Below, in pieces: positions 26,901 to 45,351 of a stretch of 64,000 nucleotides of DNA. Source of the stretch: Paramacrobiotus metropolitanus (taxonomy: Eukaryota > Tardigrada > Eutardigrada > Parachela > Macrobiotidae); assembly GCF_019649055.1 (NCBI RefSeq), contig NW_026570338.1:124001-188000 (forward strand), read 5' to 3'. Positions within the stretch are counted from its first letter, which is position 1; each line of letters begins with the position of its first letter. The translations under genes were made by a program, and so were the position numbers. The notes beneath the pieces were generated by a model. The model was not told the origin of the DNA. It saw nothing but the letters and a program-made list of their open reading frames with translations, and searched no databases.

Positions 26901-29900
26901 ACGGGACGCTGATCATCAATCCCACCAGTAAGACCGACACCGGCAAGTACACCTGCCGCGTCACCAACGGGATCGAGGAGACACCGCAGGCCAGCGCCTG
27001 GCTCAGTATCGAATGTACGTAAAACGGTGGCGTGGCTGACAAGATCATGTCGACACACACTTGGCCACGGGTTGAAAATAATTTCTAGGAAGATTCCTCA
27101 TTATTTATAATCTTCTGACCGTAAGCTCGCCATGTCGGTGTGGTAGAAAAAGTTCAACAATTGCAGCGGCTTTCCCCACTTTCATCTGTGAGAAGCGCGT
27201 TTAAAACTTTTTTTTGGTATACGTACAGAGTTTGCTGCTGTTTTGCAGTGGGATGCATTGCAATTCATGCATATTCATACAAATCGACGAAACATTTTTC
27301 TTTAACGGTAAAAATCGGAAGCCAAAATTTTCATTGCAGTAAATTCCGTTTTGTCAAGCACATAGGGTTAAAGTGGTCATCGAGAGTGGCTGTCAACTGG
27401 AATATTCACGACCATCTCGTCTGTGGGTAAATGACGCTTTACGTTGGTTTCTTGTAGTAAACAATTCGCAGCACATTTTAAATACAGAAAAAGCGGCAAA
27501 AATCAGTCTGCATCCCAGTCGAACCAAGTGCAAAATTGCTACAAAGTATTTATTTCAGCTCATGTATATATGCGCGATGTTGGGCCAGTACCTCTTGAAG
27601 CCAGTTCACTACGAAATAACGCACTCTTCAGTGAGTTTAATACTGTGCAGAAGTCATTAATGCTGCACAAGGTTGAGAAAATGCGGCTTTAATTTATTCC
27701 TGATGCAATCAGGTTATACAAAGTTCTTTACAGATATGTTATATTATTCAGGCAACATTGCTAAAATGGTAAAACTAATAATAAAACTATTAAACGAGCG
27801 AATGCAGAAGAAGCGTGCACAAATTTACAAGAGATTGTTATTACAGATCCAGCCCGGATCACCTACAATCCAACACTGCAGTACCTTCCTTTGAACCTCT
27901 CCGGCATGATCCGCTGCTTTGTGGAAGCCAATCCGCCCGTACAGTTTGTGCAGTGGACCAAGGATAATCGCGTTCTGGACATCAAAGCCCTGGTAAGCGC
28001 GTCTGTCATTCGCACCGGCCTCATTCAAGGGCGACATAATCCTATTATCGTACAGAGTTTGGGTGCTAAACTGTTGTGTTTATAGCCGGCCGTCACCAGC
28101 TTGTCCAACGGATCGCTCTTCATCGAGAAGGTGACCATGGACCATCAGGGCATCTACACCTGCACTCCTTATAATACCCACGGCACAGGTGGCGCCAGCA
28201 TCGAAATGAACATCCTCGTCGAAGGTATGTAATAAACAGAACTCTTATAAAAATAAACGAATTTTGAAATAAAATTGATAAATTGCTATAGTAAAAAATT
28301 GTACATTGAATCCTAAAACAACGCGAATAACGGTGACCTTTGTTAATAAGAAATAAATACAATAAAATTATTAATGGGCTAAGTACACAATTAAAAGATT
28401 AATCAAAAGCAAAATACTATATTGTTTATCGTCTAATCAAAAGCCAATGGCTATTTCTACATTTTGTGCGCTGATTAATGTGTGTTAAAATGAATGAATT
28501 TTAAAAGTATCTGTAACTGCACTACATGGAGTAATTCGTACTTAATGTTGTTTTTTTTTTTAATTTTATAAAAGCGATAATATTAAACATTTCAAATCTT
28601 CATAATTTGTATTTTTAGTTGTATAAAGCTAATTTTTGTGAAGCCGAATAAAGATCTGATAAAAGTATTCGTGTTGCAGAACCTCCGGCCTTCGCGATTA
28701 TCCCCAAGCCCTTCTACCAAGGCGAACAGAAAGGCACCGTCACCATGCTGTGCGCCGCCAAGGAGATCGCCGGCCGCCCCAGACCCCGTCTGTACTGGCG
28801 GCGTGCCGACAGCGCCCCCCTCCCTACGGACCGCACCAGCACCCACGCCGGCAGCCTGACCATCTTCAACCTGAAGAAATCCGACCACGGCGCCTACCAC
28901 TGCGTCCTGGAGAACGACGTGGCCACCCTGATGGCCAGTAGTTCCCTGATCATCGAGAGCACCACGCCCCATGCCCCGACGAATCTCACCGTGGACCCCG
29001 GACCGTTCAGCGCCGACATCAGATGGCAGCCGGCGTATAGTGGCGGCTTCCAGCAGCACTACGTTATATGGTACCGGCAGTTCGGGTCCAGTAGCCGGCA
29101 GTGGCGGACGTTGCGGGTGCGGCCGGATGACGCCACGTCGTTTTCGGTGTATAACCTGAGTCCGGGGACCATGTACGAGTTCCAGGTGCTTTCCCGCAAC
29201 CAGCTGGGGGATGGTCTGTTCAGTGACCCCATCGTGGTGCGGACTATGGGTAAGGGCGCGTTTGTACTGTAGTTCGTTCTGCAACGATTCGGAAATTTCA
29301 CCGCTTCCGCATTTCTGAACTTTAGCTTCGAATTATCTGCTTAATATATTTAGTATCAATACTAAAGAACGTAGTTGAATTCTTTACCAATAATAATTAC
29401 TATTTAGTGAGTATTTACATAATATTATTATATTGAGGGGCGCATGAAAGATAGTGCAGATCATGAAATGATGGGTGTACAGATTACCGTATCTGGACTT
29501 AAAAATGCCGTAATAAACAAAAAATAACCATAAATGCCCTCTAATGTTTATGCTAACACTAGGTAATCTTGGCACTTTAAAGTTAAATAAATATACACTT
29601 TTTTTGCATTTTTTGGCATAGTCAACCGATTTTACACAACCAGCAAGCGCTGGAATACTGTTTGACAGTTAAAAGAATAAACATTAAAAACACCCGAAGT
29701 ATCTCTGTCTTTTCTCGGGTTAAAGAAATAACGTACTCCAAACAGCCGTAGCGTTGTTAACGAACGAAGGATATCCTTTGTCCGGGTGCGGCGGCGGCAC
29801 GCTTAACTTATTTACAGTACATAAATTATTCATGAGCTCACAGATGCGGTCATTAATACAGTAATTTTGGTTTTGCATTTCACATCCAAACGCTTGCGCA

Positions 29901-32083
29901 AATTTACACTAATTTATGTTATTAAATTTTAAAAGAAAACTGGCCGTGGAATAAATTAATTAATTAATAGTATTTATCAAAAATTACGACGACAAGAATT
30001 CCTTTTTTCAATAGCTCAGTCGGTTCAATTGTTGAATTTTTATGCGCGCTCTCGAACGTTAGTTTTTGTCTAATATGTATACTGTACTTACAGTTCTAAA
30101 CCGTCGAATAAACTTCGACAGTTACCGTAGTGCAGCGGCATAAAGAGACACCGTCCACTAACAAATGAATTTATATATAATAAGAAATAGTATGATTTTC
30201 TTTTGAAGCTGTTTTGTTTTGATTTGTACGAAATAATTTAACAATAAGCTTCATGGCGCGTTTCAATTCCGGTTGGCAGATATTGACTCGTACGCCACGG
30301 TCTTTCCCACGGACGCCAGCGGCTCCACTTACGTCCCGTCGATCGTCAAGCCGTCGGGCGCCCGTCCCGGCTCCCCGCAGAACGTGCACATCCACCCCGA
30401 CACGTCGGGCCGCGGGGTGCGCGTGGTGTGGGAGCCGCCGCACAACACCTCGGTGCCGGTGATGTACTACATGCTGGAGTACCGCAAGCAGGGCGAGCAG
30501 TGGGGCCGCTCCAGCGACCCCATCGCCGAGGGCCGCACCTGGCACCACGCCAAGGACATAATACCGGGATCGCCCTACGAGTTCCGGGTCTACGCTTTCA
30601 CGCTGACTTCCTTCAGTGAACCCAGTGACATACAGAGTTTTACTTTAAAACGTACGTGTGCACCGGCATCGTTTAGTGGTCATATAAACCGTAATCCGCA
30701 ACGCACATAAGAAAGCATAAGAAAACATAAGAAAACACAAGAAAAAGACAGTTCTAAATTTAACTGTTGGTTTGTGACAAATCCATTTTCGCGGTCAGTA
30801 TGAGTGATAAGTGACCTTTCGGTTTGCAGATGAATTTAGCGGAAATATGAGCTCGACCATCGCCATAACGGCGGGGATCGTGGGGGGCGTGGCGTTTTTC
30901 GTATTGTCCATTGTGATAATTTTATGCTGCATCAGATGTTTTAAGCGCAAGCAGAGCAAAGCTCGTTATGGTAAGCCGCTTGTTAGTGACTTATTACTGC
31001 TGCCTCAAATTAAAACCGGCAGTTTACCAATAATTTTTTACCGGCGTTACAGAAGCCAACGGCCACCGTAGCAATAGTCCGGTTCCGTTAAAGCGTGGGT
31101 AAGCCTTCCCTGTCCTGTCTATTTCCTTTTCGGGTCATCTCATTCATTGCTGTTTTAATTTCTTATATTTCTCTTTTTCTGCTGCGTTCTCAGGAAGCGA
31201 TCACAAGGTGACGGGCTGATTTTTTTAATATGAGCAATTACAGGTGATTTATGTTTTTATGGTGTTAGCAGAGCTGATAGATTCGAAGCGTGGCGAATAT
31301 TACGCAGCATGAAATCGCTGCGCGCCACCTGCCAGCAGCTGCTCCTCCCGCGTGGTACCACCCCCTCGCCCTGGCCCCTGGACGACTACGGTGACATCTA
31401 CGCCAGCCCCGACACCGTCCTACCGCCGCGGAAACCCCTGCACAAACGCAGCTACTCCGTGCAGATCCAGTACACCGAACCAATACACCCCAAGCCCGGC
31501 AGCGCCCTGAGCGGCACCAGCAGCGACTGCATGACCATCCGCCCCTGTATACGCGCCCTGCGTCTCCCTCCCGGAACAGCAGCGCCTGGTCGCCGTCCTC
31601 CGGCATCCCGAACCCTATCCCCACGTCCTGGATGACCTCCACCGGAAGGGCCTCCTGGAGGACCCCGGCGGGGACTACGACCGCGACCAGCTGCACGAGA
31701 CCATCCAGCGCCTGCGCTCGCGCTCCCAGGAGCACCTGGACGGGGATATCTGCGCCGACTCGGGCGTGGCGCTGACCATGACCTCGCAGAACGCCACCGA
31801 CCAGTCGCCGTCGGGCTCGGCGTCGGGGTTCAGCGGGGTCTCCACCCCACCGCCGCCCCTTGGGGATAAAACGGCCGCGTGGCGCCGCTCTCGTTCCGCG
31901 CACCTGGAGCCGCCGCCCGTGGGGGTTGGGGTGCCGGTGGAGACGCGGTGTCAGGCGTTGATGGAGGAGTTCCGCGAGTATAAGCGGCGCCGCATGCGTG
32001 AGGAGATCGAGGCGGTGCGGGGACGGCCGACGGTGCCGGCGCTGCGGGACGCCGGACGACGCCCGTTGGAAAGCGAATGTTGA
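23954..32083 (+). CDS. Turtle/IGSF9-type Ig-superfamily transmembrane receptor
   Basis: Twelve exons: 23954-24247, 24371-24436, 25479-25594, 25999-26152, 26721-27014, 27847-27992, 28086-28224, 28680-29249, 30280-30651, 30830-30970, 31053-31098 and 31269(or 31272)-32083. All junctions follow GT..AG and keep phase. Domains in order: Ig1 (IIEWSKRG, GYPPHVGSGYAGR, DEGWYECK), Ig2 (PPKITV to GTYECVAKN), Ig3 (GAVILRPPENMTY to GKYTCRVTN), Ig4 (YPARITYNPTLQYLP, WTKDNR, GIYTCTPYN), Ig5 (GAYHCVLENDVATLMA), two FN3 domains (PHAPTNLTV with AYSGGFQQHYVIWYR; then GSPQNVHIHP to SPYEFRVYAF), a membrane helix (ITAGIVGGVAFFVLSIVII) and a cytoplasmic tail of about 290 aa. These landmarks match the Turtle/IGSF9 family, homophilic neuronal adhesion proteins acting in axon targeting, dendrite tiling and synapse maturation. 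The signal peptide is missing from these exons. The tail shows one apparent frame break near 31546. Family assignment is firm; the end of the tail is less so. Confidence 0.9.
30705..30748. repeat. CATAAGAAAACA minisatellite (short)
   Basis: Four imperfect copies of a CATAAGAAAAC-like unit in the intron between the second FN3 exon and the membrane exon. The same motif recurs in a longer array at 45352-45470. Confidence 0.6.
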
Positions 32084-34669: not shown

Positions 34670-37600
34670 ATGCATAAGATGCACCACCTCTACAATATCT
34701 CCGTCCACCTGAACCACTCGTCCCGTTTCGCGTCCACCCCGTACGAGCTGATCCTCACCGGCTTCCTCGGCTTCTCCATCATCGCCACCGTCCTCCTCAA
34801 CGGCCTCATCATCGCCGTATACCTGCAGAACCCCCTTCTCCGCAACAGCTTCAAAACCTACATCGTTAATTTATCCATCGCCGAGGTTCTGTTAGCCCTC
34901 ACCGGGATGACCGGGAACTTCATCAGCGCGGTGTTCGGCTACTGGCCCCTGCCGGACGCCGTGTGCACCTTCGTCCTGTACGGCAGCCGCATCTTCGGCA
35001 GCGGCATCCGCTACGGTCACGTGATAATCACCCTGAACCGGTTGTGGGCGGTGATGTACCCGCTACACTATAAACGCCACCATACGCTGATGGTGGCGAA
35101 CGCCAGTATTGTGGTCAGTTGGGTGCTGGCCCACGCCGTGCACCTGCCGGTGATTATTCCCGGACGGATGTGGTTGCTGGAGGGGGAGGAGCGGTGTGTC
35201 CTGAATGTGGGGTTCCAGAAACGGGCGGCCATTGCCGTGGAGGTCATGGGGTTCACGGCGGCCGAAGGGGTGATTATTTGTCTGTGTCCGGTGGTGTGGT
35301 ATAAGGTCCGGCAGTGGCGGATTAATCAGGAGCGCCAGCAGAAGCAGATGCCGTTGAATGCGGCACGCCCGCAGGAAATATCCAAGTCCAAAGGTGAGAA
35401 TTATGTAATTCTCTTTCGAGCGGTCATTTTGCCCGAGATTCAAGATATTTTACAAATTTTCACAAATAAAAAAACAGTAAAATGTTTTTTATTTATAAAG
35501 CATAAATGTTCTTACGCATTCGAACTGCGTATAGCGGAAAATAAATTAATAAAACACAGCTTTATATTCATCGTTGGTTATATATTCTTTTGGTAAATAT
35601 GTGGTAAATATTTATTTTGTTGTTTTTAAAATGTACTGAATGCTTTGCATTAATCGTGGTCATATTATAATCGTGGTCATATTATATTAACTAAATTAGA
35701 TAAATTTAGTAAATAGTCATTTTTTGTTTTCGAATATTGCTCAAGGTTTTATGTTAAAAATTCGCTAAAATATCAATTTTAGTTTTTTGTTTTCGAAATT
35801 TACTCAAGTTTGTATTCATATCGTCCAGGAATATTTGATCGATTAATTGACGGATCGATTGTTTTGTTGAGTGGCCGAGCCCGTTAAGCGGCGCCATCAC
35901 ACCTCGTACACTTGTTTATATTATACCATATTAAACAGGCACCGCCGAAAGTTATGTAACCAAAATCCGGCATATTGCATTTAGCATATTACTGCATACT
36001 CATACTTACACCTCCCTTTTTTTCCATTTCCGTGTTAGCCGTTAATTATTTAGGGTAAAGCAGCGTCACGGCCGATCCCGACGCCTGCGCGCTACACTGC
36101 ATATTACAGCAAGCAAACATGCTGCTCGTGGGGTATAAATTTTTATCCATTTTTAATCTAATATGGCCCGGTAGCCCGTCAGCGCCGGCGCGCGTCAACA
36201 AGAAAAATAGATTTCCCCTATGATACGGAAATAACATTTACATAGCTCTTCCTGTTGACTCTCCGGCAACAATATATTTACATTAAGGAGTCCTTTTCGT
36301 TCTGCCGAGCCAGCGGCTGTCCGTCTTGATGTGCCGGCTTTTACGGGGCGGTTTTGTTGACCGGGCATAATAAGAGCGGTAACGTTAACTCATTCAGAAA
36401 AACATGTGTGCTTTATAAATGAATGGGTACCTTGTCGAAAGTGTTTTCTTATACAAGCCGGGTGATTCATTTCGTACAGGTACAGTGAGAAATACAGATT
36501 CATAGGCAACGTTAACATTGTAAGCTCCATACCACGGCCCGCCCCGCCGCCCACTTTGCGCGTTAGGGGCATTTGGCATGGCCGATGCACATCAGATATT
36601 GGAACCGTATAAGCATATTTATCGTAAAATCAAAGAATTTATCAATGGAATTTATTCATCATAATCATTCACTGCAGAATTAAATTTATTATTACGATAA
36701 CTGTAGTGTAGTGGCTGTACTACCGATGCTTTACGCAAGAAATTATGCACCCGCCTTGTACCTCTATAAAAGTGTTTTATTCTTTTTACACCGATACCAA
36801 AAATTCGTACGGAACGTTCCATACAACGTATGTGTTATTAACTTGAACCGATGATGGATTCCGATCGTCGAACACCACACTTGTCGGTCTATTCCATGTA
36901 TAAGCCATCCAGGTGTCACCGTTGATTTTACTAATTAAAACAAGGGAATTCGCGTCACATCACGTAGACTTGAAGGGCAGCTGTCCAATTATATAATAAT
37001 ACGCCCTTCCGGTGCGGGCCTAATGAGAGCCGGCCGGAAGAGATATACGACGAGAGTGTGACATGTTATCGTGGAGGAGATTACAATTATATGACTAAAG
37101 TAGGACACATAATATACGCGGCTGTCAAAAAATGTTAGTATAATGCTGTAAAATAATTTTACGATACAGGCTTTCATGCGAACAATAAATACGTACAGTA
37201 ATACAGTAGTTAGTAGTTACCAACTTTCTACTTCCCAAAGCGAAGCTTACTTAAAAAAGCAAAACTAAACTTTGCAATAGTATGCCCATGTTATCTACGC
37301 AAATATAAAAATAAATCATAATTCATTACAAATTAGACATTTAGGAATTAAACGAATAAGATACCGAATGTTCTTACATTTGGAATCAATCGAAGTGTTC
37401 TTCTTCCGCCTTTTTTACTTACCATTGAACTTAATTTATTTGTTTACCCGAATAATTTATTTTTATTTTAATCAAATTTCCTCTTATGTAGCCGCATTAT
37501 TTGAACAAATTAGCGGCATGCATTCGGCATTAATCCAATTAACGCGTAATTTTCGCCTGATCTAGACGACAACGAATCGATCATCGATCAGGACAGCCGG

Positions 37601-43070: not shown

Positions 43071-44213
43071 CTTAACGTCGACTAAACCACCCTGCAATTT
43101 GGTGCCGTATGATAACCGTACAAGCGCGTGATCATCTCTTCGCCTTCGTGCTCATAACATTAGACGTACGATGTCTTCAAGGACCTCACAAGTCACAATC
43201 AACTATTTTTTATACCAACGAGTGATTATATTCTTCTTTAAGCAACTATATGAAACAGTTTATACTTGCTGATGTAAGTAAAACTTATTTATTTATGGCC
43301 TTAACTGAATTCTAGTTACCTGTCGCGTGTACTGAACTGCCTGTGCAAGGTTTTCGTTAAAAATTTTGAGACCTGGCGATGGGCTGGGAATCCTAGTTAA
43401 ACCCACCCAGTTACTAATTAATCTGAACTATCTAATGAACCAACATATTCGTATGCATAGTGATGCTTGAGAAGTTGTTAGTAACACCGTATAACGGTAA
43501 TACATAGAACGTATAACATCGTACTGCATATTAGCCGTAGCTGGTTAGCATTTGTATACATTAGCATTATTGAGAATACTGCCGGCAGAAAAACCGATGT
43601 GTATCAAACCGGGAGACAACAAGGACCCTTGAACTGTGCCCGGCCAAATAACCATGCTGCGGGAGACTCCAACGCCCTTATCGTTTCGACATCACACATT
43701 TCAACCTGTAAGTTCTGTGACTGCTTGATTTTACAGGGTGATAGGCTGATAGCTTTGAGTAAGTAAGTTTCCGCGGCACGCTCTTGGCTTTGGCCTGCTA
43801 TAACATTTTTGTCATGTCCCTGTCGTACCGTTAAGGTGAACAACCTGGATACATGGGTAACGTAATATACTGTTTACCATAAGGAAAGTCCATTTTGCTG
43901 TGCAGTCCGTTCGGCTGAAAGGACTCGTTTCATTTTTCAGGAACTGCAAGTAGAGTTTACAGACTTCACGTTTTCGAAGTACGCTTTTCGCTTTCATCTT
44001 TTCTGTGGTGTCTCGTGAATTCCTGTTGCTGTACTCCGTACACATGTTGTTTACATCCTAGCAACTCAGCTTGTATTCTATTGCTGAAATGTTCTACTTG
44101 TTACTGATTTAGTCATCTTGTTGGCCAGCTGCAGTGAACATGTATTATTAAAGCTACTTATTATTATTACGTACTTTCAACATACTTCACATTTTCAGTA
44201 ACCCAAATCTACC
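43071..44213. other. Region between the receptor gene (-) and histone H4 gene (+)
   Basis: It must contain the missing 5' exon or exons of the ionotropic-receptor gene and the promoter and 5' UTR of the H4 gene. A polypyrimidine-AG site (ACATTTTCAG) ends at about 44199, 15 bases before the H4 start codon. This suggests that the H4 5' UTR is spliced, which is unlike replication-dependent histone genes. Confidence 0.4.
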
Positions 44214-44525
44214 ATGACTGGCCGTGGACAAGGTGGTAAAGTTCTGGAAATAGGAGGCATCAAGCGCCATCGGAAAGCACTCCGTAACAACATTCAAGGC
44301 ATCACCATGTCAGCCATCCGTCGTTTGGCGCGTCGTGGTGGAGTGAAGCGTATATCCGGTCTGCTCTACGAGGAGACCCGCGGTGTGCTGAAGATCTTCC
44401 TGGAGAATGTTCTCCGGGACGCCGTCACCTACGCTGAGCATGCCAAACGCAAGACCGTCAGCGCCATGGACGTGGTGTTCGCCTTGAAACGCCAAGGCAG
44501 AACTCTGTACGGATTTGCCTCGTAG
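44214..44525 (+). CDS. Divergent histone H4 variant
   Basis: Uninterrupted 103-codon frame with the exact H4 length. Core signatures are intact: [62 protein letters not shown]. The N-terminal tail is strongly altered relative to the near-invariant animal H4 (mature numbering): S1T, K5Q, G9V, G11E, K12I, A15I, V21A, D24N, K31M and P32S. Later changes are I50L, V60I, I66L, T73A, T82S, Y88F, G101A and G102S. R3, K8, K16 and K20 remain. Two of the four classical acetylation sites are thus lost, one of them as glutamine, which resembles acetyl-lysine. There is no histone 3' stem-loop after the stop, and a probable 5' UTR splice acceptor lies just upstream. Both suggest a polyadenylated, replication-independent variant. 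It packs DNA with H3 in the nucleosome. Confidence 0.9.
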
Positions 44526-45351
44526 CTGCCATCGTGTGTTAATTTGTTGTATTGCCGTCTTTCGCTCTAGTATACTTAAAAGTTAAGAACAGTGTCACCG
44601 TCTTGTGGTGTTGCTTTAAAATATGTCGTCTGTGAAGTTTTGATTGACCGAAACTGTACAATTCGGTGAACTGAGACATCAGTAAAGTAACTAACGAAAA
44701 CAGCAAGCGTAGCTAAACAAAACACGGTATGCACTTTATACGCAAACGCACTGCGAAAACCGCAGGTGACGCGTCCCATCAGCATTTATTTGATGCAAAT
44801 TACATTCACTGAAAACAACAACACGGGACTAGCATAAACCGCTGCATTGCAATGCTGATTAAAGTTGGTCGCCTTCTATGGTGACCTTTCAAGAGCGTCT
44901 TAGCTTAGTCACTCCCGCATCTTAGCCTTTGCACATCCAATCCGGTAACGCACAACAATATCTAAGAAAACATATGGGTGTCGATATATATAATTTACTA
45001 TTAATTATTATGCATTTATTAAGACAAGTGGTCGCGCAGGATGGATGAAGGGGCGGGCAGAGCGAATTCTGAAAAGGTCATGGGCTAGGCACAGTAACAG
45101 GGGCCTGCAGAAAACAAGGAGAGGTTGCGAATCATGTAACAAGGCTTTCATTGATTGTTCTTACTGGGTGGTGCTCACCTTTGTTCATATTGAGAGATAA
45201 ACGACAAGAAGCTGTAACACGGTGACAGATAGGTAGTGCGACAATGGAAGTGTAAATTTTTGGCTATCATAAATAGGAAATACTAAAAACATGCAAGGCA
45301 CGATGCGCAAATTGGCAGACAAAACGGGATGTTATACCGAAAACTCGGCTG

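Follow-up and report, generated by a model that had tools for sequence, protein, structure and literature searches.

The window analyzed here, a stretch of 64,000 nucleotides from the tardigrade Paramacrobiotus metropolitanus (positions 124,001 to 188,000 of contig NW_026570338.1, assembly GCF_019649055.1), contains an open reading frame for a divergent histone H4, which had been read as a replication-independent H4 variant with a rewritten N-terminal tail (the original prediction). Comparison with the H4 genes of the same genome provides good support for the origin of this copy by retroposition and, on balance, it is probably a processed H4 retrocopy without function. The case for its likely lack of function is made from rates of change alone. 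Because the frame is intact, the description "processed retrocopy, probably non-functional" is preferred to "processed pseudogene". The original prediction had named a processed pseudogene as the result that would overturn it; the processed origin is well supported, whereas the non-functional part is likely but not proven.

Retroposed origin of the H4 copy

The frame is intact, as originally described, and comprises 103 codons and a stop without an internal stop or frameshift. Among PDB sequences, residues 1–102 of the translation align to histone H4 (best E 1.4e-51, 175.8 bits), which, together with 83% identity to the H4 of the host, places it in the H4 family over its full length. The Pfam Histone model scores slightly below threshold (24.4 bits against a cut-off of 26.4), and CENP-T_C ranks first with 35 bits, over its own cut-off; despite the Histone score, the predicted protein is clearly a histone H4 as judged by the PDB match. 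Relative to host canonical H4 there are 17 substitutions, nine of them in residues 1–32 with Met as 0 (K5Q, G9V, G11E, K12I, A15I, V21A, D24N, K31M, and P32S) and the rest beyond residue 32 (I50L, V60I, I66L, T73A, T82S, Y88F, G101A, and L102S). At the nucleotide level, the coding sequence departs from that of C12, one of the canonical genes described below, at 46 of 309 sites. The earlier count of about 18, ten of them in residues 1–32, is exact against S1-type H4 (PDB chain 1eqz_D, counted from the sequence letters), where the total is 18 because S1T is added. The reported changes K5Q, G11E, K12I, and K31M are all present, and R3, K8, K16, and K20 are retained. No other histone gene was recognized near the frame within the window.

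Canonical H4 copies were sought, as had been proposed, in the host genome (169.8 Mb, 533 contigs, in which N stretches could hide more), and nine candidates were scored. The seven H4 matches are four canonical genes (C12, C8, and two on C25) and three intronless copies, namely the window copy and two broken ones (C32 and C83). All four canonical genes encode one identical protein, and all carry a phase-1 intron at the same place in codon 13 (364, 235, 443, and 381 nt, in the above order), which is missing exactly from the window copy, C32, and C83. The canonical protein ends in GFGL, compared with GFGG in PDB chain 1eqz_D, and a divergently oriented H3 gene adjoins the C12 gene (by eye).

The 5′ and 3′ untranslated regions (UTRs) of the window copy are diverged yet alignable by MAFFT to those of C12, as far as the C12 poly(A) site, the position of which was taken from the A run of C32. 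For the 5′ UTR alignment with C12, C32, and C83, the inserted repeat described below and one copy of its target-site duplication (TSD) were left out. The UTR distance between the window copy and C12 was 0.36–0.43 under three gap settings. Because of the exact intron loss and the UTR homology with C12, the window copy is regarded as a retrocopy of a C12-type mRNA. An 8/9 match flanking the copy near its expected ends may represent a TSD of the retrocopy, although it is weak and could be due to chance. Processed retrocopies and pseudogenes are characterized by exact intron loss, the UTRs of the parent mRNA, and an unlinked site, and the window copy shares all of these features. Unlike such retrocopies in general, it has a frame that is open after 17 amino acid changes and a putative solo long terminal repeat (LTR) in the 5′ UTR, and no clear A tail or TSD is left.

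The two sister copies differ in age. C32, with a changed start codon, a 2-base insertion, a 3′ A run, and a dS of 0.038 to C12, is a recent broken copy, and C83, with a 1-base deletion in codon 3 and a lost stop, is an old one. Since both are intronless and broken, H4 retroposition is recurrent in the host genome. An old DNA-level H4 duplicate in which the codon-13 intron was lost or had never been present would likewise be expected to match C12 in its UTRs, and the best of four trees joins the window copy with C83 (lnL -1005.4 versus -1007.8 for the star tree), as a shared intronless ancestor could produce. However, the intron is exactly missing from three unlinked copies, the UTR homology stops near the inferred poly(A) site, and C32 looks processed, complete with an A run. 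Furthermore, the sites at which the window copy shares with C83 a state not found in C12 and C32 occur only at codon positions 1 and 3 (2 and 9 sites), a distribution that change in functional parents would produce. We consider such a duplicate very improbable.

The exact intron absence and the UTR homology thus support a course of events in which the spliced transcript of a C12-type intron-bearing H4 gene was reverse-transcribed and inserted at an unlinked site, after which the retrocopy accumulated substitutions independently. A small LTR element would later have inserted into its 5′ UTR and been reduced to a solo LTR. Most likely, the copy lacks function and the frame is still unbroken by chance, in which case the "rewritten tail" would represent unselected drift.

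The absence of a histone stem-loop 3′ of the frame, noted in the original prediction, was confirmed but is not diagnostic, since a match at E <= 1 was also missing from all four canonical H4 loci. Assignment to a replication-independent class from introns and the stem-loop fails because the canonical genes themselves have the intron and likewise gave no stem-loop, and the window frame is intronless. The combination of a codon-13 intron and no stem-loop match in canonical H4 genes is unusual among animal core histone genes (cf. PMC3156773), and the histone mRNAs of this species may be polyadenylated in general. A genome search with RF00032 gave one match of 29.7 bits, under the 34-bit cut-off, at C33:1051233-1051278, near which lie three ATG-initiated frames of at least 60 amino acids, none histone-like by eye; 75 of 24,558 first-look candidates were scored, so the search is not a census. 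A search for SLBP gave no match, and the controls were equally silent, which makes this result uninformative.

Rates of change and the question of function

In NG86 comparisons with C12, dS and dN were 0.438 and 0.090 for the window copy and 0.463 and 0.115 for C83. A dN/dS (omega) analysis, originally suggested against relatives, was carried out among the host H4 copies. On the star tree, branch omega was 0.449 for the window copy, 0.482 for C83, 0.714 for C32, and near 0 for the background; for the window branch on four trees it was 0.449, 1.247, 0.449, and 0.454, the last on the best tree (retro). Omega = 1 on the window branch was not rejected on any of the three trees tested, with twice the log-likelihood difference (2dlnL) at 2.63 (star), 2.57 (retro), and 0.04 (winout); the fourth tree, 83out, collapsed onto the star tree. 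The corresponding values for C83 were 3.10, 2.61, and 2.37. On the star tree, equal omega for the window copy and C83 gave a 2dlnL of 0.01, and equal omega for the window copy and the background gave 62.5. Because its rate of change is close to that of its broken sister, the window copy is probably unused and ordinary, although there is a hint of possible use.

At sites identical in C12, C32, and C83, changes found in the window copy alone number 7/85, 9/90, and 10/72 at codon positions 1, 2, and 3, with no significant difference between positions 1+2 and position 3 (Fisher P 0.26). The equivalent counts for C83, where C12, C32, and the window copy agree, are 9/87, 10/91, and 14/76 (P 0.10). 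With 32 substitutions, which is the fit under omega = 1, 30% of neutral simulations retained a frame free of stops together with its start and stop codons; with 62 substitutions, 10% did. The UTR branch of 0.26–0.28 per site would imply more than 62 substitutions and hence lower intact-frame figures, although part of it may predate copying. GC3 and CpG counts do not decide between the readings.

A number of observations weigh against a copy without function and suggest instead a functional H4 retrogene, which would have gained a promoter and in which the fold would be kept by selection and the tail freed, the two Hat1 deposition lysines K5 and K12 being lost (K5Q, K12I) and K8, K16, and K20 kept; by analogy, such a gene might have a restricted role, for example in the male germ line. 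Frame, start, and stop are intact, so that a disabled frame, the usual though not defining sign of a pseudogene, is absent, and the coding sequence has no indel relative to C12, whereas five gap runs were counted by eye in the alignment of the 3′ UTR. The window changes within the fold (residues 30-93, n = 8) are conservative, with a mean BLOSUM62 score of 1.12 versus -0.39 under neutrality (P 0.0066 and 0.0058), and remained so in 16 tests combining four matrices with the boundaries 25-93, 30-93, 24-102, and 33-100 (P 0.0003–0.019). The same settings gave P 0.24–0.69 for the broken C83, and direct permutation of fold severity between the two copies gave P 0.001 to 0.09. These values are to be read against multiple testing, with six tests of severity, two of location, and a single Fisher test, followed by 20 matrix/boundary settings. 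Severity over the whole protein was not significant for the window copy in four settings (P 0.09–0.17), nor was the location of its changes (8/17 in the fold; P 0.13; Fisher versus C83 P 0.09). Of the neutral runs that stayed intact, 20% had at most 17 amino acid changes at 32 substitutions, 1.7% at 40, and none at 50 or 62, and the observed number is therefore small if the branch is long. Under three alignments, codon positions 1+2 changed at 0.36–0.39 of the UTR rate (P(ratio >= 1) between 0 and 0.002), but the ratio in C83 is similar at 0.30–0.36 and does not tell the broken copy from the window copy, and some of the change on both branches may be older than retroposition. When omega = 1 was imposed jointly on the three retrocopies, 2dlnL was 7.0 for retro (3 df, P about 0.07) and 2.64 for winout. 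V60I, moreover, introduces the residue also found in an H4 sequence of presumed plant type that is matched over its full length by PDB chain 8kcb_H.

The original prediction had taken the conservative core changes as a sign of selection, and that pattern holds; its interpretation is opposed by the omega = 1 tests and by the equal star-tree rate of the broken C83, which also stand against a retrogene. The solo LTR, which ends 22 bp upstream of the ATG, could act as a promoter, but its three upstream ATGs would hinder translation of transcripts starting before the LTR, and it looks younger than the retrocopy (96% to its nearest relative) and was thus probably not the first promoter. A functional retrogene is the less likely but a serious alternative. 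The more specific case in which an animal H4 retrogene is active, perhaps under the control of the captured solo LTR, and produces an H4 without both deposition lysines (K5Q, K12I) but with the fold and the K16–K20 basic patch kept, is unlikely.

The repeat in the 5′ UTR and other features

The two parts of the 5′ UTR of the retrocopy are separated by a dispersed repeat (Table 1). About half of its 12 genome matches are near full length, and the best other copy is 96% identical. The repeat has the ends TGTGG...TCACA and is flanked on both sides by TTTTC, compared with one TTTTC in C12, and contains three upstream ATGs (44044, 44089, and 44140) with short frames. On C88 (323700-325046), two copies (3 differences over 187) enclose 971 bp and are bracketed by an outer 5-bp duplication, ACTGC. 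The internal 971 bp contain no long frame; on the strand of the element, the longest in any of the three frames is 101 codons. A purine-rich stretch lies ahead of the second 188-bp direct terminal repeat. We take the C88 element to be probably a TRIM-like LTR element. GCATA stands on both sides of a lone copy on C195, and another on C14 has no evident duplication. Based on the TG...CA ends, the short TSD, and the paired direct repeats on C88, we read this family as small, non-autonomous LTR elements and the insert in the window as one of their solo LTRs, which might supply a promoter to the window copy.

The splice acceptor that the original prediction placed before the ATG is not borne out, because CACATTTTCAG consists of the end of the repeat, the TTTTC TSD, and parental exonic 5′ UTR as in C12; cryptic use of its AG is possible. 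An intron in the 5′ UTR of the window copy was considered and rejected, since the dispersed repeat and its TSD lie between the UTR parts and insertion accounts for the arrangement without splicing.

Table 1. Features of the H4 copy and its surroundings (positions in the window)
Feature	Position	Strand	Basis or remark
Possible left TSD of retrocopy (AACTGCAAG)	43942..43950	+	8/9 match to 44699-44707; weak, could be chance
5′ UTR part of retrocopy, homologous to C12 H4 5′ UTR	43951..44003 (start approximate)	+	MAFFT alignment with C12, C32, and C83
TSD TTTTC, left copy	43999..44003	+	Single TTTTC at this place in C12 (by eye)
188-bp dispersed repeat in 5′ UTR, read as solo LTR (TG...CA)	44004..44191	+	12 genome matches including itself
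TSD TTTTC, right copy; with repeat end and following AG forms acceptor-like CACATTTTCAG	44192..44196	+	Sequence
Final 17 nt of retrocopy 5′ UTR	44197..44213	+	C12 alignment
Open H4 reading frame	44214..44525	+	103 codons and stop; lacks the intron that all four canonical genes have in codon 13; 17 amino acid changes versus host H4
Retrocopy 3′ UTR, homologous to C12 3′ UTR up to inferred poly(A) site	44526..44698 (end approximate)	+	Alignments
Possible right TSD of retrocopy (AACAGCAAG)	44699..44707	+	Weak, could be chance

Elsewhere in the window, 28745-30710 holds Ig/FN3 exons whose match to a DSCAM-type model is weak and under its cut-off, and 34670-35596 an exon of a rhodopsin-family G-protein-coupled receptor.

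Related H4 variants and biological meaning

Divergent H4 proteins have been described in several eukaryotes. According to PMC3156773, H4t of Oikopleura dioica has three changes and is known from a male-specific histone cluster, testis RNA, and sperm mass spectrometry; H4t and the window copy are both divergent animal H4 frames, the latter having 17 changes and no other histone gene recognized close by in the window. Human H4G shares about 85% identity with canonical H4 over the shared part and misses the C-terminal tail region (PMC10878826), whereas the window frame, with a similar identity of 83%, is full length. The same source gives about 80% identity to host canonical H4 for Trypanosoma brucei H4V, comparable with that of the window copy, and enrichment at transcription termination sites, which is a feature of H4V. 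A further trypanosome variant is H4.V of T. cruzi (PMC13052989). Ascomycete H4E (PMC10878826) and the window copy are both H4 paralogues with an exon structure unlike that of canonical H4, but unlike H4E, the window H4 has no extension and no known orthologue.

A wider search of genome contigs found relatives at three loci (88%, 84%, and 31% identity), of which the 88% and 84% loci, labeled as bacterial metagenome-assembled genomes, may be eukaryote contamination. In viral contigs, the canonical H4 protein as query hit 39 pattern matches, none of them a relative. Literature searches within a limited set of PMC papers found nothing joining a histone H4 variant with a tardigrade and nothing on an intronless H4 retrocopy of intron-containing H4 genes.

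As a retrocopy, the window H4 would be ordinary and would counsel caution against naming histone variants from one open frame; it also indicates that an intron-carrying canonical H4 family can seed intronless copies. K5 and K12 are the diacetylation sites of newly made H4 and are acetylated by Hat1, according to PMC6884459. Loss of both lysines need not bar import, because H4 K5R/K12R is still nuclear in Drosophila (same source). Like the data on H4t, these findings offer leads and are no evidence on the window copy itself. If the window copy is expressed, it would be a full-length divergent animal H4 from which both Hat1 sites have been naturally removed, and would offer a natural test of the need for pre-deposition diacetylation. 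If it proved to be a working retrogene, it could mark nucleosomes with an H4 refractory to diacetylation by Hat1.
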